Shown here one piece after another: positions 2,806 through 10,383 of a stretch of DNA of 33,228 nt; within the stretch, counting starts at the first letter, position 1, and each line of letters begins with the position of its first letter. This DNA comes from Candidatus Magasanikbacteria bacterium RIFCSPHIGHO2_02_FULL_48_18. Lineage in GTDB: Bacteria > Patescibacteriota > Patescibacteriia > Magasanikbacterales > UBA922. Position numbers and translations under genes: made by a program. The stretch lies in contig MFQC01000005.1 of NCBI GenBank assembly GCA_001784285.1, positions 1 to 33,228 on the forward strand, given 5' to 3'. Under the pieces are notes generated by a model. That model did not search any database. It had not been told where the DNA came from and worked only from the letters and a program-made list of their open reading frames with translations.

Positions 2806-3822
2806 ATGGATGATTCACTCACGCGCATTGCACAGATGCTGGTGGCGCCTCACAAAGGCATTTTGGCGGCGGATGAAAGCACGGGCACCATAAAAAAACG
2901 TTTTGATTCGATTGGCGTCGCATCCACCGAGGAGACACGACAGGCATATCGGCAACTCCTATTTCAGGCGCCAGGAATGGAACAGTATGTGAGCGGTGTG
3001 ATTCTCTATGACGAAACCATCCGTGAGACAACGGACGCGGGCGTTCCTTTCCCAAAATTTTTGAGCGAGAAGGGAGTCTTCCCGGGCATTAAAGTGGATA
3101 TGGGAGCGAAGCCGTTGGCGCTGTTTCCAGGTGAGACCGTGACGGAAGGATTGGACGGACTGCGGGAACGTCTTCAGGAGTACAAGGCATTGGGCGCTGT
3201 ATTTGCAAAATGGCGCGCAGTTATTGCGATTGATGATCAAAAACATATTCCCACGGATTTTTGCATTGAAGCAAATGCCCATGCGCTTGCCCGATATGCC
3301 GCCCTCTGTCAAGAAGCGGGTCTTGTTCCGATTGTGGAACCCGAAGTCTTGATGGATGGAACGCATTCAATTGACGTGTGTTTTGAGGTAACAAAAAAAA
3401 CACTGCAACGCGTGTTCGTTCAGCTGAACGCGCATCGCGTTCAATTGGGCGGTATGTTGCTCAAGCCAAACATGGTGATCTCCGCAAAAAATGCGGCAAT
3501 TCAAGTCGGCGCGGAAGAAATCGCTCAAAAGACGCTTGCCTGCTTTCGAGAAACTGTTCCGGCCGAGATTCCCGGTATTGTCTTTTTGTCCGGCGGTCAA
3601 AGTGAACGGCAGGCGTGTGAAACGCTCTCTGAAATCAATAAACAGAAGGGCGGCGCGCCATGGGAGCTCAGTTTTTCCTATGGCCGCGCGCTTCAGGCGT
3701 CTGCCCTGGTAGCATGGGGAGGAAAATCAGAAAATATTTCTGCCGCGCAGGAGGCGTTTTTGGCGCAGGCTTGCGCGGTTGGTGCCGCGCGTGAAGGGGC
3801 GTATGTCGCGATCGGCTCGTAA
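2806..3822 (+). CDS. fba: Fructose-bisphosphate aldolase, class I (eukaryotic-type)
   Basis: Schiff-base aldolase interconverting fructose-1,6-bisphosphate with glyceraldehyde-3-phosphate and dihydroxyacetone phosphate. Motifs: GILAADESTGTIKKRF at 18-33, AKWRAV with Lys135 (equivalent to Lys146 of muscle aldolase), VEPEVL at 177-182, and LLKPNMV with the Schiff-base Lys220. GGQSE supplies phosphate binding. It has 338 residues, slightly shorter than animal enzymes, and lacks their C-terminal tyrosine. There is no SD; the start is preceded by TGT. It sits 19 nt after fbp and 9 nt before gap. Class I aldolase is metal independent. Confidence 0.95.
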   Translation: MDDSLTRIAQMLVAPHKGILAADESTGTIKKRFDSIGVASTEETRQAYRQLLFQAPGMEQYVSGVILYDETIRETTDAGVPFPKFLSEKGVFPGIKVDMGAKPLALFPGETVTEGLDGLRERLQEYKALGAVFAKWRAVIAIDDQKHIPTDFCIEANAHALARYAALCQEAGLVPIVEPEVLMDGTHSIDVCFEVTKKTLQRVFVQLNAHRVQLGGMLLKPNMVISAKNAAIQVGAEEIAQKTLACFRETVPAEIPGIVFLSGGQSERQACETLSEINKQKGGAPWELSFSYGRALQASALVAWGGKSENISAAQEAFLAQACAVGAAREGAYVAIGS

Positions 3823-3831
3823 TCTTTTTGT

Positions 3832-4851
3832 ATGAAAAAAATACGTATTGGTATTAATGGCTTTGGCCGCATTGGTCGTATTTTGACGCGCGTCGCGTGG
3901 AATAATCCTGCGCTTGAGATTGCCGCGATCAACAGCCGATCGGACGCGGATATTTATGCGCATTTACTGAAATATGATTCTATTTACGGCAGATGGGGAC
4001 ACGAAGTGGATTGTGATGGCAACGACGCGCTCGTGATCGATGGAACGCGCGTGCCGCTTCTTCATAATGGAGATATTACGAACGCACCGTGGAAGGGTCG
4101 CGACGTCGACGTGGTCATAGAATCAACCGGCGTGTTTCGCGATCGGGCATCGTCCGAGGCGCATATTCGTGGTGGGGCAAAATATGTTGTTGTGAGCGCT
4201 CCTGCCAAAGAAGAAGACAAAACCATGATTTATGGCATTAATCATGAAGAATTTGATCCGGAAAAACATAAAATTATTTCGGCCGCTTCGTGCACCACCA
4301 CCTGTCTTGCGCCCATCGTAAAAGTGTTGCATACCGCGTATGGCATCAAGCACGGCACGGTGATTACGACCCATGCCTATACCAATGATCAACATTTAGT
4401 GGATCATCCTCACAAAGATAAAAGTTTTCGCCGTTCCCGCGCGTCCGCGATTTCCATTATTCCGACCTCAACCGGCGCGGCAAAAGCTATCGGCAAAGTG
4501 ATTCCGGAATTGAATGGAAAATTGGATGGCAACGCCCTTCGCGTTCCCGTGCCGGTATCGTCCATTGTTTCGTTTGTCGCTGAAGTAAGCCGCCCGGTGA
4601 CGCGCGACGAAGTAAACGCGGAGTTTCACCGAGCGGCAAAAGAAGATTTTCCCGGCAATTTGGCCGTGAGTGATATTGGCCTTGTCTCTGCCGACTACAT
4701 TGGCGATCCTCATGGGTCAACCATTGATACGCTATCGACGCTCGTCACAAACGACACCCAGGTCTTTATCCAGGCGTGGTATGATAATGAGTGGGGGTAT
4801 GTGACGCAGATGGCGAAATTGGTGGAGTACATGGGAGAGAAGATTCAGTAA
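3832..4851 (+). CDS. gap: Glyceraldehyde-3-phosphate dehydrogenase, type I
   Basis: Tetrameric oxidoreductase interconverting glyceraldehyde-3-phosphate and 1,3-bisphosphoglycerate. The N-terminal Rossmann motif is INGFGRIGR. The catalytic cysteine is Cys154 in SAASCTTTCLAP and the catalytic histidine is His181 in TTHAYTNDQ. WYDNEWGY marks the C-terminal part. Its 339 residues are typical. The usual cofactor-selecting Asp after AIN (AINDL in NAD enzymes) is replaced: residues 33-37 read INSRS. Loss of that Asp with an adjacent Arg resembles NADP-preferring GapB-type enzymes, so an anabolic, NADPH-using role is inferred. The 3' end overlaps the convergent methyltransferase gene by 86 bp. Confidence 0.96.
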   Translation: MKKIRIGINGFGRIGRILTRVAWNNPALEIAAINSRSDADIYAHLLKYDSIYGRWGHEVDCDGNDALVIDGTRVPLLHNGDITNAPWKGRDVDVVIESTGVFRDRASSEAHIRGGAKYVVVSAPAKEEDKTMIYGINHEEFDPEKHKIISAASCTTTCLAPIVKVLHTAYGIKHGTVITTHAYTNDQHLVDHPHKDKSFRRSRASAISIIPTSTGAAKAIGKVIPELNGKLDGNALRVPVPVSSIVSFVAEVSRPVTRDEVNAEFHRAAKEDFPGNLAVSDIGLVSADYIGDPHGSTIDTLSTLVTNDTQVFIQAWYDNEWGYVTQMAKLVEYMGEKIQ

Positions 4852-5386
4852 GAGGAATAGTGTATATATGTATTCCGCCGGGCGTTGCCACACCGTCTTT
4901 CAAGAGCGGATGAAAGGTTCCTTCTTGATTGGGAATAGTGTTTGAAAGGACCACAATGGTTGCTCCTGGCTTTGCCTCTTTTTGTATTTTTTTCCACATT
5001 TTTTCTACCACAGACTGCACGAGAAAAAGATAGATAATATCTGCCTCGCCGATATTGGCCGTAAAAAAATTTTGTCGGTACACGCGCACGTTGGATTGTC
5101 GCATCCAAGCCTTGAATCTGGTATACCACACATGGAGAGGAGAAAGTTCGTAGCCGATCAGTTTTTTTGGATGAAATTGTTCCGCGGCAAAGAGAACATC
5201 TCCTTTTCCAGAACCCAGGTCATAGATAATAGTTTCTTTTGTTATAGCCATGTGCTCCATAAGTGAAACAAGGCGTTTTTTTGGCGTGGCAACGTAAGGA
5301 ACATGGGTAAAAAAATATAAAAAAATGAGATAAAAAAGATACGCGGGCGGGAGAAGAAACAGAGCGATAAGAAGAATGCGGGACAT
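4766..5386 (-). CDS. Membrane-anchored class I SAM methyltransferase, FAM173-like
   Basis: A hydrophobic N-terminal segment (about residues 3-28, ILLIALFLLPPAYLFYLIFL) anchors a Rossmann-fold methyltransferase. YVATPKKRLVSLM precedes the SAM-binding motif YDLGSGKGD. GYELSP follows, and EADIIYLFL occupies the motif IV region. This order resembles the FAM173 family, whose eukaryotic members are membrane-linked protein lysine methyltransferases (ANTKMT, ATPSCKMT). The substrate here is unknown. The ATG at 5386 is chosen because upstream codons encode no conserved sequence. The last 28 or so codons are antisense to the 3' end of gap and give a low-complexity Ser/Thr/Pro/His tail that may not be functional. 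Confidence 0.8.
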   Translation of the reverse strand: MSRILLIALFLLPPAYLFYLIFLYFFTHVPYVATPKKRLVSLMEHMAITKETIIYDLGSGKGDVLFAAEQFHPKKLIGYELSPLHVWYTRFKAWMRQSNVRVYRQNFFTANIGEADIIYLFLVQSVVEKMWKKIQKEAKPGATIVVLSNTIPNQEGTFHPLLKDGVATPGGIHIYTIPLTESSLPCTPPISPSASHTPTHYHTTPG

Positions 5387-5436
5387 ACTACCACTTTGTA
5401 TACCACAGAATGGAGCCGGTGTCATTGTGAAAAAAC

Positions 5437-5526
5437 AAAAAACCGTCCCTATCTCTCTGTATACACAGATCCTCCTCCCTGAACAGTGAAGTGAGTTCAC
5501 GGCTTAGGGGGGTGGGGGACGGTTTT
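5437..5526 (-). terminator. Branched terminator-like RNA structure at the end of the GC-rich cassette
   Basis: On the minus strand an 11-bp closing stem (5516-5526 with 5439-5449, AAAACCGTCCC/GGGACGGTTTT) ends in six T, so it can act as an intrinsic terminator. The 66-nt interior is itself structured. CCTCCTCCCT (5471-5480) pairs with AGGGGGGTGG (5506-5515), with GTGAA/TTCAC (5486-5490/5496-5500) at its tip. TCTGT/ACAGA (5456-5460/5465-5469) forms a second arm. The result is a three-way junction rather than a simple hairpin. It ends about 10 nt after the last gene of the cassette. Confidence 0.55.
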
Positions 5527-5536
5527 AAGGGTTTGT

Positions 5537-5947
5537 TCAATCCACGTCCGGGTAGGGGTCGGGGAGGGAGTCCAACCATCCGGAGAACAGGATGGCGATC
5601 GTAAAAAAGAACGACATGATCCCCCAGAGAATCAAGAGCACCCAGCCGGGCACGGTTGAATCTCTGAGGTACCAAATGAAGGGATAAAGAGGGGCGATGA
5701 TGAGAAAAATAATGATGAGGAGCCTTGGCCTCTCACGGCAAAGCCGGAGGGCCGAGTAGATGGGCCGCCACTCTCGCAACAGCCCGATGGCTGTGAGCAC
5801 CGTCGCCAGGGGGCCCAGCCAAAATCCCCAGTCGTCGGCTACGAGTCCCCCGAGTAAACCCAGGGGGGTGCCGACAAACGCGGCCATAATCAGGATGAAA
5901 AATCCCTGGACCACTCTTTTTTTCATTTTTCTCGAGTTCATCTTCAT
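5537..5947 (-). CDS. Small multi-pass membrane protein of unknown function (third gene of cassette)
   Basis: A 136-residue protein, not recognised. It has a basic N-terminus (KMNSRKMKKR) followed by about four hydrophobic segments near residues 13-34, 38-58, 74-92 and 100-121. It ends in a short acidic tail, DPYPDVD. The start at 5947 is supported by a strong SD (AAAGGAG) on the minus strand. Such SD sequences are absent from almost all other genes in the window. The coding sequence is visibly richer in G+C than its neighbours. It is last in a three-gene minus-strand operon. Foreign origin is inferred from composition and SD use. Confidence 0.8.
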   Translation of the reverse strand: MKMNSRKMKKRVVQGFFILIMAAFVGTPLGLLGGLVADDWGFWLGPLATVLTAIGLLREWRPIYSALRLCRERPRLLIIIFLIIAPLYPFIWYLRDSTVPGWVLLILWGIMSFFFTIAILFSGWLDSLPDPYPDVD

Positions 5948-6007
5948 CTTTTCTCCTTTGGGGCCGGCTCTCGTCGGGTGTTGACTTTGGTGTCCCCCCG
6001 GCCACCT

Positions 6008-6451
6008 TTACATGCGGTATCGTTTTTCTGGTTGAACCGCGCGTGCGATGCCGGCCATAAGAAGGAGTCCGGTCACCCCAACCCAGGTGGCGATCAGGCC
6101 ACTGCGCCAAGCCTCCCAGGGTGGTTGCCCGGCCCGGGAGAAGAACTCCTTGAACATCCAGCTGGCGATGATTCCGTTGAGAGCCAGGCGCTCCCAGGTC
6201 GTGATCGGGGCGCGAAAGAGCTGCCCCAGCTCCTGGCAGACTCCGGCGATGATGCCGGCCACAAAGATAATGGCGGCAACGACGGCCACGATTGCCGCTG
6301 GAATCAGGAACGCCATTTGTGCGAGCGAGACGGTTGTGTGTCCGGGTGGTATCGGCAGCCCGGTCCAAGACCAACCCCCGAGGAGAATGGCCTCCCGGAG
6401 GACGATGCCGACGAAAAAGGTCCAAAACATTTTTTTGACGAACGGAATCAT
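6008..6451 (-). CDS. Small multi-pass membrane protein of unknown function (second gene of cassette)
   Basis: A 147-residue protein, not recognised. The basic start MIPFVKKMFW is followed by hydrophobic segments near residues 8-25, 44-70 and 115-137, with a possible amphipathic helix around 75-95 (VCQELGQLFRAPITTWERL). The start at 6451 is set by the minus-strand SD GGAGGAG five bases upstream. A longer open frame runs further upstream but encodes no plausible conserved sequence and would overlap the first gene of the cassette. A perfect 13-bp hairpin lies immediately upstream of the SD. Confidence 0.8.
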   Translation of the reverse strand: MIPFVKKMFWTFFVGIVLREAILLGGWSWTGLPIPPGHTTVSLAQMAFLIPAAIVAVVAAIIFVAGIIAGVCQELGQLFRAPITTWERLALNGIIASWMFKEFFSRAGQPPWEAWRSGLIATWVGVTGLLLMAGIARAVQPEKRYRM

Positions 6452-6463
6452 TTTTCTCCTCCA

Positions 6464-6493
6464 CAGCCGGCCCGACAGCGGTCGGGCCGGCTG
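6464..6493 (-). promoter_or_regulatory. Intercistronic hairpin upstream of the second cassette gene
   Basis: CAGCCGGCCCGAC (6464-6476) and GTCGGGCCGGCTG (6481-6493) form a perfect 13-bp, very GC-rich stem with a 4-nt loop. On the mRNA it sits directly before the SD (about 6455-6461) of the 147-residue gene. No T run follows, so it is not a terminator. Roles in mRNA stability, processing or differential translation are possible but inferred. Confidence 0.6.
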
Positions 6494-6539
6494 GTGTTGG
6501 GTGCCATTGGTAATGTGGCGTTGGGCCACCCCTGGTACA

Positions 6540-6737
6540 CTATGGTCGTCGTCTGTATTTGTGCCAAAGGTAGCCCTCTCCCGTGGGCCAGGCCGACAGC
6601 AGAGCTGCACCGCCGACCTTTTGCAGGATGGTGAGTGGCGTTCCCCCCCATCCGCATCCCTCCAGCAACAACAAGAGTCCAACGAGTATAGTGATGTTCA
6701 CGGCTCCCACACAGAGAGCGAATGTCGGCGATTTCAT
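6540..6737 (-). CDS. Small membrane protein of unknown function (first gene of cassette)
   Basis: A 65-residue protein, not recognised. It has one clear hydrophobic stretch (about residues 8-26, CVGAVNITILVGLLLLLEG) followed by CGWGGTP and a basic C-terminus ending RRRP. The LLLLLEGC segment is only loosely lipobox-like. The start is supported by a minus-strand SD (AGAGGA, seven bases before ATG). It heads the three-gene operon, about 160 nt downstream of a consensus promoter, with a structured leader in between. An 88-nt spacer separates it from the next gene. Confidence 0.7.
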   Translation of the reverse strand: MKSPTFALCVGAVNITILVGLLLLLEGCGWGGTPLTILQKVGGAALLSAWPTGEGYLWHKYRRRP

Positions 6738-6770
6738 TTTTCCTCTTCTCCACTGTTTGTTTTGTCAGAC

Positions 6771-6831
6771 TGCCCGCGGTTTTGCGGGCACGGCTTTGAT
6801 TATTTTGTTTAAAATAAGCAAAATCGTGCCC
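6771..6831 (-). promoter_or_regulatory. Overlapping, mutually exclusive hairpins in the cassette leader
   Basis: Read on the minus strand, a long hairpin forms first. Its pairs are GGGCACG/CGTGCCC, TTTTG/CAAAG and TTATTTT/AAAATAA, with a 4-nt AAAC loop. That is about 19 pairs between 6831 and 6786 interrupted by two single mismatches. A second hairpin, TGCCCGC/GCGGGCA (6790-6771), reuses five bases of the first one's 3' arm, so only one can form. One pair of the first stem is G-U as minus-strand RNA but a mismatch on the plus strand, suggesting the minus-strand RNA is the selected molecule. A switching leader or attenuator is inferred. Confidence 0.5.
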
Positions 6832-6898
6832 ACTTTGGGTGTTTTTTGTCAAAGAGCAAAAGTCAAAGGATAATAGACAAATTTCCAATGAACAGCTT

Positions 6899-6926
6899 AC
6901 TATAGCACAAAAATGCGCTTTGTCAA
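6899..6926 (-). promoter_or_regulatory. Sigma70-type promoter for the GC-rich membrane cassette
   Basis: On the minus strand TTGACA (complement of 6921-6926) is followed by a 16-bp spacer and TATAGT (complement of 6899-6904). Transcription would start near 6892 and leave a leader of about 155 nt before the ATG at 6737. It is back to back with the promoter at 6990-7017. Confidence 0.75.
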
Positions 6927-6957
6927 GCATATTTTTGTTATTTTTGTGCATAAAAAT

Positions 6958-6998
6958 GTTCTGTTATCCACAGAACTGTCATAAAAAAATTGACAGTT
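6958..6998. promoter_or_regulatory. Two overlapping inverted repeats between divergent promoters (candidate operator)
   Basis: GTTCTGT-TATCC-ACAGAAC (6958-6976) and AACTGTCA-(9 nt)-TGACAGTT (6974-6998) are perfect inverted repeats that share three bases. The right arm of the second covers the -35 box TTGACA of the plus-strand promoter. The first includes TTATCCACA (6964-6972), identical to a consensus DnaA box. The position between two divergent promoters, one driving a TrmB-like regulator, suggests an operator. A T run after 6998 would also allow a plus-strand hairpin terminator. Confidence 0.5.
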
Positions 6999-7017
6999 TT
7001 TTTTAGTATGATATATT
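6990..7017 (+). promoter_or_regulatory. Sigma70-type promoter for the TrmB-headed gene cluster
   Basis: TTGACA (6990-6995), a 16-bp spacer, then TATATT (7012-7017). The predicted transcription start is about 7024, only about 10 nt before the ATG at 7034, so the mRNA would have almost no leader. Confidence 0.7.
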
Positions 7018-7033
7018 TAAAATTAGCAAAAAT

Positions 7034-7771
7034 ATGGATATTAGTATATTTAAAAAATTAGGATTTTCTGACAGATCGGCCAAGGTCTATCTTGCGTTGC
7101 TCCAGCTGGGACCAAGTTCGGTCCGGTCTTTGGCATTGTTTTGTGGATTAAATCGAGGGACGCTCTATGAAGCATTGAAGTGGCTCCAAGAGCAAGAAGT
7201 GGTCTCATTTTATAAAAAAGACTCAAAACAGCTCTTTGTTGCCGAAGATCCGGAGGTACTCCACACGCTCATTCGTCGTCAGGAAGAAGAACTCTCTCTT
7301 GTCGATCGTCAGTTGGAAAAAGTTATTTCCGAACTCCAGGCCGTACACGATCGCGGGGGTGAACGGCCGGTCGCGCGGTATTTTTCCAAAAAAGAAATAG
7401 CTAAAATTTTGGAAGATGTATTGGAAACCTGTGAAAAAGATGAAGACCGGCTGTATCGAATTTATTCCACCGAAGGACTTCGCGAATGCTTGTATCGGGA
7501 TTTTTCCACTTTTAGTGATGTGCGGATTGCCAAAAATATCCGTGTGAACGTTATCGCGATTGGCGGCGGCGGCGAGCTCCGCGGTTTGGATGAGCGCAAG
7601 TGGCTTTCTCTTAAAGATACCATGCCCTCGACCTCTATTCTCATCTATCCCGGCAAGACTGCGTATATTTCTTTGGACGCAAAACAAGAACCGGTGGGTG
7701 TTGTTATTGAAAATGAAGGAGTATCCCAAACGCAAAAAAATATCTTTGACTCATTGTGGATGTGTTTGTAA
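7034..7771 (+). CDS. TrmB-like winged-helix transcriptional regulator
   Basis: A 245-residue DNA-binding regulator. The N-terminal winged helix (about residues 1-70) has the TrmB pattern: SDRSAKVYLALLQLGPSS, a recognition helix near LNRGTLYEALKWLQ, and the wing VSFYKKDSKQLFV. A coiled-coil region (about 80-110, RRQEEELSLVDRQLEKVI) follows. The C-terminal domain (about 120-245) is of the TrmB sensor type and likely binds a small ligand. Archaeal TrmB proteins sense sugars; the ligand here is unknown. It is first in a long plus-strand cluster and divergent from the membrane cassette, so it may control both and itself. Confidence 0.85.
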   Translation: MDISIFKKLGFSDRSAKVYLALLQLGPSSVRSLALFCGLNRGTLYEALKWLQEQEVVSFYKKDSKQLFVAEDPEVLHTLIRRQEEELSLVDRQLEKVISELQAVHDRGGERPVARYFSKKEIAKILEDVLETCEKDEDRLYRIYSTEGLRECLYRDFSTFSDVRIAKNIRVNVIAIGGGGELRGLDERKWLSLKDTMPSTSILIYPGKTAYISLDAKQEPVGVVIENEGVSQTQKNIFDSLWMCL

Positions 7772-7774
7772 GGT

Positions 7775-8419
7775 ATGGTGATTATTGATTTTGATGATAC
7801 ATTGTTTGACACAGAACAATTTAAAGAAGCCCGGCTTGAAGCGGTGGAGCATCTTGGCGTTTCAGAACAAGAATTTTGGGAAACCTATCGCATTGCCCGC
7901 AATAGTCCGGATGGCGCGTTTACGTATTCCAATGAGCGCCATGCCGCCGTGTTGGCTGAGAGAGGGTACAGCGAAAAAGAAGTGCTCTTTGTTTTGGAAC
8001 AAACGACAGGGGAGCACGTGTACGAATTTCTTTTTTCCGATACGATCCCTTTTTTGGATTTTTTGAAACACACGCGCGAGCGCATGATATTGTTGAGTCT
8101 TGGCAATCCGGGATTTCAAAAATTGAAGACGGACGGTTCCGGGGTGAGCGCATATTTTGACACGGTGATCATGGTTCATGACACCAAGCGCCATGTTCTT
8201 CGGGAGCTCTTGCGTGCTGTTCCCGCATCGGATTCGGTGTGGTTTATTAACGACAAAGTGGACGAAACAAAACAGCTCCTTTCTTTATTTCCGGAATTGC
8301 GTCCCATATTAAAACAATCTCGCCGGTTTCCCGAGTCGGACTATGCGGAGAGCGGGCTACCCTATTTTGAAACCCTTACGGAAATACAAGAATTTTTAAC
8401 ACCATATGTCACTCCTTGA
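7775..8419 (+). CDS. HAD-superfamily hydrolase
   Basis: A 214-residue Rossmann-like phosphatase. Motif I is IDFDDTLFDT (residues 3-12), with the nucleophile Asp5 and general acid Asp7. Motif II is the Ser in LLSLGN, motif III the Lys in DTKRHVL, and motif IV the acidic INDKVDE. A helical cap lies between motifs I and II (about 15-85). It probably acts on a phosphorylated metabolite, but the substrate cannot be read from sequence. It starts 3 nt after the TrmB-like gene and overlaps the next gene by 14 nt, so translation is likely coupled. Confidence 0.85.
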   Translation: MVIIDFDDTLFDTEQFKEARLEAVEHLGVSEQEFWETYRIARNSPDGAFTYSNERHAAVLAERGYSEKEVLFVLEQTTGEHVYEFLFSDTIPFLDFLKHTRERMILLSLGNPGFQKLKTDGSGVSAYFDTVIMVHDTKRHVLRELLRAVPASDSVWFINDKVDETKQLLSLFPELRPILKQSRRFPESDYAESGLPYFETLTEIQEFLTPYVTP

Positions 8420-9194
8420 TCATGTCGGCATGGTTCTCTTGGCGGCCGGCAAAGGCACGCGTCTTGGCTGTACGGATAAACCCAAGGTCATGCTTGATAT
8501 TGGCGGAAAACCCATGATGAGTTATATTGTTTCCAGCCTTGAGTCGCTTGGCGTTTCATCGGAGCGGATTATGGCCGTGGTCGGATTTCAGCGAGAAACA
8601 ATCATTAACTATTTTGGTTCTCGCGTGAATTACGCGGTTCAAGAGGAACAGCTGGGCACGGCGCACGCCGCAATGGTTGGCGCCGCGGCGCTTCCGGAAA
8701 CGATTGAAACCGTGTGCGTTCTTCAAGGGGATGACAGCGCGTTTTTGTCTCCCCAAACACTGAATAATTTTTTGGAAACGCACATTTCATCAGGAGCAGA
8801 TTTGACGCTTATGACCGTCGTATCGGACGATGAAACGCTCGGCAGGGTTATTCGTGACAAAGATGGAGCGCTTCTTGACGTCCTTGAGAAAGAAGAAGTG
8901 ACCAAAGACCAAGAGTCGATTCCGGAACGCAATACGAACATTTTTTGCGCGCGCAAAGCGTGGATCCTCAGCGCCTTTCTCCGGATGCAAGAAATTGATG
9001 CGATTCATGAGTTTGGCATTCCGCAGTTTATTCCTTTGGCGAGAGAAGATTTGTTGCGTGTGCAAACCTATCGTCTTCCAGATCCGGAAGAATATATGGG
9101 TATCAACACCAAAGAGCAATGTGCGCATGCGGACCAAAAAATGCACGCGTTGGTTCAATCGCGTCATTCACATGCGACACAGTCTTATTCTTAA
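8406..9194 (+). CDS. Nucleotidyltransferase, GlmU N-terminal-like
   Basis: A 262-residue sugar-1-phosphate nucleotidyltransferase. The signature LAAGKGTRLGCTDKPKVM binds NTP and Mg2+. EEQLGTAHAA and the metal-binding LQGDDS follow the GlmU uridyltransferase pattern. The left-handed beta-helix acetyltransferase domain of bifunctional GlmU is absent. It may make UDP-GlcNAc from GlcNAc-1-phosphate or activate another sugar phosphate; the specificity is uncertain. It overlaps the HAD gene by 14 nt and lies in the same cluster as GlmS and the YvcK/GlmR-like protein, which favours an amino-sugar role. An alternative start exists at Met9, 8430. Confidence 0.85.
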   Translation: MSLLDHVGMVLLAAGKGTRLGCTDKPKVMLDIGGKPMMSYIVSSLESLGVSSERIMAVVGFQRETIINYFGSRVNYAVQEEQLGTAHAAMVGAAALPETIETVCVLQGDDSAFLSPQTLNNFLETHISSGADLTLMTVVSDDETLGRVIRDKDGALLDVLEKEEVTKDQESIPERNTNIFCARKAWILSAFLRMQEIDAIHEFGIPQFIPLAREDLLRVQTYRLPDPEEYMGINTKEQCAHADQKMHALVQSRHSHATQSYS

Positions 9195-9204
9195 ATTATT
9201 TTGT

Positions 9205-10383
9205 ATGCCTCAGATGATTTCCGCGCTCACGCTCGACATTGCACAGGACGGGTGGAATTCCTCCCGCGGTTTTATCAAACGGGAAATCTCCATGCCGACT
9301 TTGGATGAAAAAAATCATCCGGAAGACGCCCTTTCGGTTATTGTCCGTGTGCGATATGCGGGCATGTGCGGTTCCGACCGAGGCATCTGGAATCGGGTTG
9401 CGTTTACCGATCTTTTTCATTCTGCGCTGGCCAAGGAAGGCAAGACGCTCCGCATTTTGGGGCATGAATTTGTGGGCGAAGTGGTCGAGACCGGGTCGCT
9501 CGTGCCGCATCTTTATTATGAAATAAAAAAAGGAGCGATGGTGTCTGGTGATTCTCATGTGACCTGCGGCAAGTGCTATCAGTGCCGGCTGGGTGAGGCT
9601 GAGGTCTGCCAGGATCAAGCGATTTTTGGGATTTCCATTGATGGTATTTTTGCGGAATATGTCAAAATTCCGGCAAAAAATTTATGGGCCATTGATTTGA
9701 ATCGCGTTCGCGGAGAAATTGCCGCCCTCTATGATCCGTTTGGCAACGCGATTCACACCCTGAGCCGGGTGGACGTGCGCGGCGCTCGAGTTGCCATTTT
9801 TGGGTGCGGCCAGATTGGACTGTTTTCGGTTCTTTTGGCTCGGAAATTTGGCGCGGCAAAAGTGATTGGCATTGATGTAAACGAACACAATCTCGAGCTG
9901 GCCAAACAGCTGGGCGCGCATGAAACCATTCATATCGAGCCGAAGGAGAAAAAAGACCCTGCGGCGCACGATGAGGCGGTTGTTGCAAAAATTATGGAGC
10001 TGACCTATGGAAAGGGAGTGGATGTGAGCTTGGAAATGGCCGGGTTTAATTCATCGGTCAATAATTGTTTGGAAGCCGCGCGGCCGGGCGGGCATGTGGT
10101 GTTTTTTGGCATCAAAGATGGGGATTTTGTCATTCCTCATTTTTCTCGGCTCATTGTGAAAGGATTGACCATTCACAGTATTATTGGCCGCCAAATTTTT
10201 AAAAGTTGGCAAATTGCGCAACGCATTTTATCCGACCGGACCAATGGCATACAGGATGCCATGTGGCAGGTCATCATGAATGAAGGCAAAGGAACGGTTA
10301 TTCCTTTTTCCGAGTATTCGATTGCATTGCTCGAGGAACGAATGGCAGAATATCCAAAATTAATTTTTGACATGCAATCATAA
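9205..10383 (+). CDS. tdh: Threonine 3-dehydrogenase-like zinc alcohol dehydrogenase
   Basis: Medium-chain zinc dehydrogenase, probably oxidising L-threonine to 2-amino-3-ketobutyrate with NAD+. The catalytic zinc site is at AGMCGSD and GHEFVGEV. The structural zinc site is CGKCYQCRLGEAEVC. DPFGNAIHT and the later GRQIFKSW are characteristic of Tdh. The Rossmann motif is FGCGQIG. At 392 residues it is about 50 longer than E. coli Tdh, with extra sequence in the N-terminal half. The true start is the ATG at 9205, preceded by TTTTGT; the open frame extends upstream into the previous gene but is not Tdh-like there. The following gene encodes the partner enzyme Kbl. Confidence 0.88.
   Translation: MPQMISALTLDIAQDGWNSSRGFIKREISMPTLDEKNHPEDALSVIVRVRYAGMCGSDRGIWNRVAFTDLFHSALAKEGKTLRILGHEFVGEVVETGSLVPHLYYEIKKGAMVSGDSHVTCGKCYQCRLGEAEVCQDQAIFGISIDGIFAEYVKIPAKNLWAIDLNRVRGEIAALYDPFGNAIHTLSRVDVRGARVAIFGCGQIGLFSVLLARKFGAAKVIGIDVNEHNLELAKQLGAHETIHIEPKEKKDPAAHDEAVVAKIMELTYGKGVDVSLEMAGFNSSVNNCLEAARPGGHVVFFGIKDGDFVIPHFSRLIVKGLTIHSIIGRQIFKSWQIAQRILSDRTNGIQDAMWQVIMNEGKGTVIPFSEYSIALLEERMAEYPKLIFDMQS

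Follow-up and report, generated by a model that had tools for sequence, protein, structure and literature searches.

Back to back with the gene of a TrmB-like regulator, three small genes for unrecognised membrane proteins lie in a 33,228-nucleotide stretch (the window) of Candidatus Magasanikbacteria bacterium RIFCSPHIGHO2_02_FULL_48_18 (contig MFQC01000005.1, positions 1 to 33,228). Do the regulator and the three genes form one acquired unit, or do they have separate histories? An earlier note on this DNA had seen the classic layout of a regulator and its target, and had proposed an acquired system with its own control. The answer that we favour, with a probability of roughly 0.6, is that the three genes are an accessory operon in a variable slot, that this operon is a member of a scattered set of cassettes composed of a promoter, one or more orphan genes and a structured terminator carrying GGAG, and that it is probably controlled by the resident regulator.

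Statistics for this genome (G000) were obtained from 438 kb of sampled stretches (∼40% of the genome), in which genes were called mechanically. Relatives were represented by one genome per species, and the family set comprised 46 genomes including G000. Several tests were picked after the data had been viewed, and E-values from covariance models are rough.

Anatomy and composition of the cassette

The cassette is encoded on the reverse strand. Its promoter (6899–6926), TTGACA-N16-TATAGT with a TG extension (TGC before the -10 box), shows 11 of 12 consensus matches and is followed by a leader hairpin (6784–6833) whose apical part is an operator-like sequence. The first gene (6540–6737, 65 residues) has the Shine-Dalgarno (SD) sequence GGAGAAGAGG upstream, the second (6008–6451, with its ATG at 6451; 147 residues) has GGAGGAG, and the third (5537–5947, 136 residues) has AAAGGAG. 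A 13-bp perfect inverted repeat forms an intercistronic hairpin between the first and second genes (6464–6493), and a branched terminator (5436–5526) closes the unit, with the motif GGGAGGAG on the 3' side of its internal loop (5472–5479). The terminator, the intercistronic hairpin and the leader folded beyond dinucleotide shuffles, with z-scores of -4.7, -4.2 and -3.1, respectively; open reading frames, promoter and folding agree on the unit of three SD-led membrane genes that had been proposed for this DNA.

The cassette has a G+C content of 0.588, compared to 0.475 ± 0.022 in other 1.2-kb stretches (z 5.2; their maximum is 0.520), and G+C at third codon positions (GC3) is 0.74, 0.73 and 0.64 in its genes as against 0.49 ± 0.04 in 14 neighbouring genes. 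All three cassette genes are SD-led, and none of the 14 neighbours uses a strong SD sequence at its start. The suggested check of composition and codon use thus bore out a departure from the 14 neighbouring genes, but the cassette is not unique genome-wide, since around 20 similar GC-rich open reading frames with a strong SD sequence occur in the 438 kb. Half of the genes at GC3 ≥0.7 have a strong SD sequence, as opposed to 4–11% of those at GC3 below 0.6, which is near the internal-control rate. Most tested members of this gene class have no Pfam domain, the exceptions being a phosphoribosyltransferase, a methyltransferase-like membrane protein, a weak pre-ATP-grasp match and a match to a slime-mould repeat. 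Promoters similar to the extended -10 promoter of the cassette stand before other cassettes, and two relatives (G028 and G009) have one at the corresponding position. One member of the class, an SD-led GC-rich gene of 456 residues, is separated from its extended -10 promoter by an S-adenosylmethionine (SAM) riboswitch (L036:8056–8161, G000:C8; Rfam RF00162, 64 bits).

The three cassette proteins are orphans. Hydrophobic segments were predicted in all of them: one at residues 7–25 of the 65-residue protein, several in the 147-residue protein (helical, at low confidence) and three to four in the mostly helical 136-residue protein. AlphaFold models were poor (mean predicted local distance difference test score 61–63), too poor for a fold search. 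No significant family was found for the three proteins in Pfam, NCBIfam, PHROGs or PADLOC, and no usable homologue among PDB sequences, phages, plasmids, viral contigs or GTDB contigs. The description of the proteins as unrecognised thus stood after the family and homology searches. PHROGs gave a single weak match, to the 65-residue protein (E 0.16), and neither the 147- nor the 136-residue protein matched phages or viral contigs. The 147-residue protein has a single relative among the 46 family genomes (37% identity, G028, L010), which is encoded at another locus, at a contig edge beside unrelated genes and with another 3' module; a profile search of 381 genomes of the bacterial class returned no further relative of it. 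For the 136- and 65-residue proteins no convincing relative was seen in 86 genomes of the order, nor for the former in viral or genome collections. Models of anti-phage defence in PADLOC remained unmatched even at E 5, and a membrane effector of the SLATT/YLATT type was rejected at 13.4 bits against a cut-off of 41 (SLATT_1) and 12.9 bits against 26.7 (YLATT). Nor are the 147- and 136-residue proteins paralogues of each other. A role in the envelope or in host contact may be proposed for the three proteins.

The regulator is a core gene

The TrmB-like gene (7034–7771, forward strand) encodes 245 residues with a TrmB winged-helix domain (PF01978, 40.7 bits, above the cut-off of 25.6; E 2.1e-10), and does not reach the sugar-sensing TrmB and TrmBL1 equivalogs of NCBIfam (20.6 bits vs 600 and 18.7 bits vs 650). 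Its promoter (6990–7017; 11 of 12), kept across orthologues, is back to back with that of the cassette (6926–6899, reverse strand), as had been described. On the forward strand follow genes for a HAD-type hydrolase (7775–8419) and a GlmU-like nucleotidyltransferase (8406–9194), which family matches and the flanks in relatives mark as conserved partners.

Orthologues of the regulator at 56–68% identity were found in 38 relatives, hence in 39 of the 46 family genomes counting G000. Among the 29 relatives whose flanks were read, the HAD gene was kept in 28 and the nucleotidyltransferase gene in 26 (within the stretch compared), and cassette genes stood beside the orthologue in none. Genes for APE, FBP, FBA or GAPDH recur upstream of the orthologues in many relatives, and the composition of the regulator gene is that of the genome. 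Because orthologues in 39 of 46 genomes keep their partners and the cassette is absent from all 29 neighbourhoods read, the regulator is a core gene of a sugar-metabolism neighbourhood that is older than the cassette and lies outside it. As it keeps these partners without the cassette, it is not the dedicated regulator of the cassette. The classic layout of regulator and target therefore failed as a co-inherited unit: absence of the cassette with retention of the neighbours of the regulator, which the earlier note had named in advance as counting against it, was found in all 29 relatives. What survives of the earlier proposal is the accessory nature of the cassette, its unusual composition and SD use, and its completeness as a transcription unit.

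Operator-like sites around the cassette promoter

A phylogenetic footprint over ∼29 orthologues revealed a conserved operator near the start of the TrmB-like gene, TTTAAAATTAGCAAAAAT (7016–7033, forward strand). The order of elements upstream of the orthologues is TTATCCACA, an ACTGTCG...GACAGT inverted repeat, the promoter and, just before the start codon, AAATNAGCNAAAAT. Motif searches located two operator-like copies around the cassette promoter, one of them inverted and abutting the -35 box (6928–6945, reverse strand; 16 of 18 identical) and the other in the cassette leader (6808–6823, forward strand; 15 of 16 identical). The paired inverted repeats that had been reported between the promoters (6928–6945 and 7019–7036) do exist, and are degenerate copies of the operator of the regulator. 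The presence of two extra near-copies of the conserved start-site operator, flanking the cassette promoter, makes it likely that the resident regulator controls the cassette locally in this genome, and sites at the -35 box and in the leader would be compatible with a looping or roadblock type of repression.

Alternatively, the copies might have arisen as A+T-rich matches by chance, beside a constitutive cassette; this has some probability, though not a large one. The motif is A+T-rich, the leader copy lies far downstream of the start site and also serves as a hairpin loop, and no copies were found in the corresponding slots of G028 and G009. However, the leader copy is the sole other match at ≤1 mismatch over 16 nt in 438 kb, where ∼0 are expected, and matches with up to two mismatches over 18 nt, such as the copy at the -35 box, are expected 0.33 times per 430 kb.

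The sequence at 6964–6972 of the window is a perfect DnaA-box-like TTATCCACA, conserved together with the ACTGTC...GACAGT inverted repeat in most orthologues. A second TrmB-like gene of this genome (L016/L041, near G000:C8:160782–161700) likewise has a divergent neighbour, an SD-led unit whose promoter is of the extended -10 type, and the same operator motif is copied between the two. Near-palindromic TTTGCTTATTTTAGCMAA sites of the operator type were also seen at G000:C6:114–131 and at C8:106571–106588, the latter at the start of a penicillin-binding-protein-like gene; sites of this type suggest a wider regulon.

A slot with variable contents

The DNA between the glycolysis gene cluster and the core operon of TrmB-like, HAD and nucleotidyltransferase genes varies in content among relatives. 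This slot holds a divergent SD-led GC-rich lipoprotein gene with weak thioredoxin similarity in G009, a divergent gene for a GC-rich membrane protein in G028, a divergent SD-led gene for a 66-residue membrane protein in G018, a co-directional GC-rich gene in G005 and a pentapeptide-repeat gene in G043, and in many other relatives it is short or holds ordinary genes. The occupants in G028 and G018 end in terminators built like that of the window, and two such terminators in the slots of 28 relatives exceed chance, given how often such elements occur across the family genomes (Poisson p ∼0.0007).

For the slot we prefer acquisition or replacement to divergence in place, because its occupants vary in the number and kind of their genes, and because the relative of the 147-residue protein is encoded elsewhere with another 3' module. 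It is rather unlikely that the slot is ancestral and that its genes diverged in place past recognition, under relaxed or diversifying selection and with neither acquisition nor swap. The window and G028, and in part G018 and G009, agree in where the promoter lies, in orientation and in the type of terminator, as under vertical descent; but the occupants also differ in length and predicted class (lipoprotein, pentapeptide protein, membrane proteins), the sole relative of the 147-residue protein is at another locus, and the composition of the cassette is foreign.

A structured terminator family carrying GGAG

The terminator of the cassette is built of a 10-bp outer stem, an internal loop with GGAG on one side, a variable inner hairpin and a U-tract. 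A first covariance model (R1), seeded by four copies (those of the window, the G028 and G018 slots, and G025), gave matches in 32 of the 46 family genomes at E ≤ 1, many of them full-length at E below 1e-8; the window copy, itself a seed, scored 77 bits. Among 21 aligned copies, 91.6% of cells paired, as against 64.0 ± 1.6 in shuffled alignments, two-sided changes occurred at 20 of 22 base pairs, and the covariation score was 0.711, compared to 0.207 ± 0.021 for shuffled alignments and at most 0.164 for slid structures; this alignment was fitted to the model, so that the pairing and covariation figures lean towards it. RNAalifold on the same alignment agreed with the fold (two-sided changes at 17 of 20 pairs), as did slid controls. 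GGAG stands directly 3' of the inner stem in 20 of the 21 copies and was present in 12 of 17 matches of a second model outside its training set (12 of 14 within the order).

Members of the family usually follow GC-rich, often SD-led orphan genes. G+C was higher before new matches than beyond them (mean +0.118, p 0.003; +0.107, p 3e-6 in the first set). Matches were found in 12 of 18 listed genomes of the family and in 5 of 16 listed from the other families of the order, per-genome counts being lower bounds under strict filters. The element is almost absent beyond the order, with matches, mostly weak, in 9 of ∼347 genomes in the rest of the bacterial class. A sampled background of 785 kb contained one strong copy, C3:250796–250866 of this genome; the small gene before it is GC-rich, encodes a membrane protein and has the promoter TTGACAACTCTCTCTCTTTGCTATGAT. 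From the G+C of the preceding DNA, the near-restriction to one order and the single strong copy in the background, we conclude that the element represents a family of structured terminators bound up with a single class of genes, and not the general terminator of these genomes. Rfam (4227 covariance models) gave only weak sub-threshold hits, with no match at the window terminator and nothing at E ≤ 0.05 in seven loci holding copies of the terminator. The build of the element suggests that it terminates transcription, and one may speculate that its GGAG pairs with the anti-SD sequence of 16S rRNA, with consequences for mRNA stability or ribosome capture.

A bolder proposal is that these terminators mark a dedicated cassette-turnover system of the order, in which preferred slots keep their promoter and terminator modules while the orphan genes between them, coding for membrane or secreted proteins, are swapped, the element being both terminator and cassette-defining signal (for exchange or for anti-SD-dependent control). 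We consider this improbable.

Relation to integrons and other 3' modules

The prospect that the GGAG terminator also serves a system for moving cassettes, as its site of recombination or recognition in the manner of attC in integrons, is very slight. One structured 3' element does stand behind unrelated genes at many loci, and an integron-like integrase with a repeat array is present elsewhere in the genome. However, no attC core sequence was seen, the T-tract and outer stem resemble an ordinary terminator, the cassettes are single and not arrayed, and the window cassette shares no sequence similarity with the integrase-repeat array. The cassette was rejected as an integron gene cassette, as it has no similarity to that locus and as all four matches to integrase models in the genome lie on contigs other than that of the window (C5).

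The integron-like locus (L035, G000:C8:40001–60000) contains a tyrosine integrase (3208–4143, reverse strand; 259 bits on the integron-integrase model with a cut-off of 265, and 256.6 on XerA with a cut-off of 220), which adjoins at least six near-identical structured repeats of 120–225 nt (∼4109 to 9951) with different small open reading frames between them; the repeats read N in places. Another locus (L041, G000:C8:160001–180000) has similar hairpin-rich 3' modules (CGGACGGCAAGATTAGCACCCTTGCCGACCGATC and neighbours) at ∼9569, 13710 and 15961, after three different large GC-rich genes. A 3' module CAACCGGAGCCAGTCT...AGCTGGCTCCAAAGGA is common to unrelated cassettes of two genera (L035 ∼6855–7085, reverse strand, and L010 ∼380–455), and the L035 copy has a hammerhead-like CTGATGAGTCC...GGACGAAATCC behind it, for which Rfam gave no match at the gathering threshold. 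The 3' module of the relative of the 147-residue protein shares a hairpin with a cassette on contig C8 of this genome.

Discussion

An acquired regulator-target pair, in which the TrmB-like gene arrived with the cassette as its dedicated regulator, is scarcely credible: the divergent layout, the operator-like copies around the cassette promoter and an excess of GC-rich stretches upstream of TrmB-type genes of the family (7 of 47 vs 4 of 116, p 0.014; suggestive and post hoc) would suit it, but the orthologues with their conserved partners, the absence of the cassette from the relatives read and the genome-typical composition of the regulator speak against it, and in its co-inherited form it is already refuted.

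We thus return to an accessory operon in a variable slot, probably under a resident regulator. Transcription would run leftward from the extended -10 promoter, SD-driven translation would yield the three small membrane proteins, which probably work jointly in the envelope, and transcription would end at the GGAG element. The regulator is probably autoregulated through the site at its own start codon, and probably also represses or roadblocks the cassette through the two near-copies on either side of the cassette promoter. Cassettes of this class would appear to begin with a strong promoter, in many cases one with an extended -10 box (TGCTA); a structured leader follows, then one or more SD-led GC-rich orphan genes and the shared branched terminator.

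Several observations weigh against this reading. The extended -10 promoter and GC-rich cassettes are only weakly associated (p 0.015), and the class is defined by common RNA and sequence signals, not by observed transfer events. The operator copy in the leader is ∼70 nt downstream of the likely transcription start, and such copies were not seen in the slots of G028 and G009. Conservation of GGAG among the matches is partly selected, as the model scores GGAG itself. Not every cassette ends in the GGAG element; this genome has two strong copies of the terminator as against ∼20 GC-rich SD-led genes in the sample. Finally, the near-total lack of relatives of the cassette proteins makes acquisition indistinguishable from rapid divergence at the slot.

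Genomes of Patescibacteria hold many orphan genes that offer no clue to the conditions or manner of their expression. A covarying 3' RNA element with GGAG, found in one order and tied to GC-rich SD-led orphans, provides a way to find and group such genes, and raises the question of why an SD-like motif is conserved inside a terminator. The locus also indicates that accessory cassettes can settle beside a core metabolic regulator, perhaps under its control.

The arrangement resembles several known systems in part. Genomic islands and individually transferred genes of Patescibacteria (PMC12455944) are likewise accessory genes of atypical composition in ultra-small bacteria; unlike those islands, which average ∼10 kb over groundwater genomes in the same survey, the present cassettes are single, 0.5–1.5 kb long, and share promoter and terminator signals. 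The window regulator has the winged-helix domain of the TrmB family (PF01978) above its cut-off and lies near glycolysis and sugar-nucleotide genes; it differs in being 245 residues long, far under the TrmB and TrmBL1 equivalog cut-offs, and outside an acquired cassette. As in integron cassettes with attC, unrelated small genes are followed by a structured element that is conserved by fold rather than by sequence, but here no attC core was seen, there is neither an array nor an adjacent integrase, and a U-tract is present. Like intrinsic (rho-independent) terminators, the GGAG element closes a transcription unit with a G+C-rich stem and a U-tract behind it; it differs from them in its long variable inner hairpin, its asymmetric internal loop with a conserved GGAG, its lack of an Rfam match, and its preference for one gene class in one order only.

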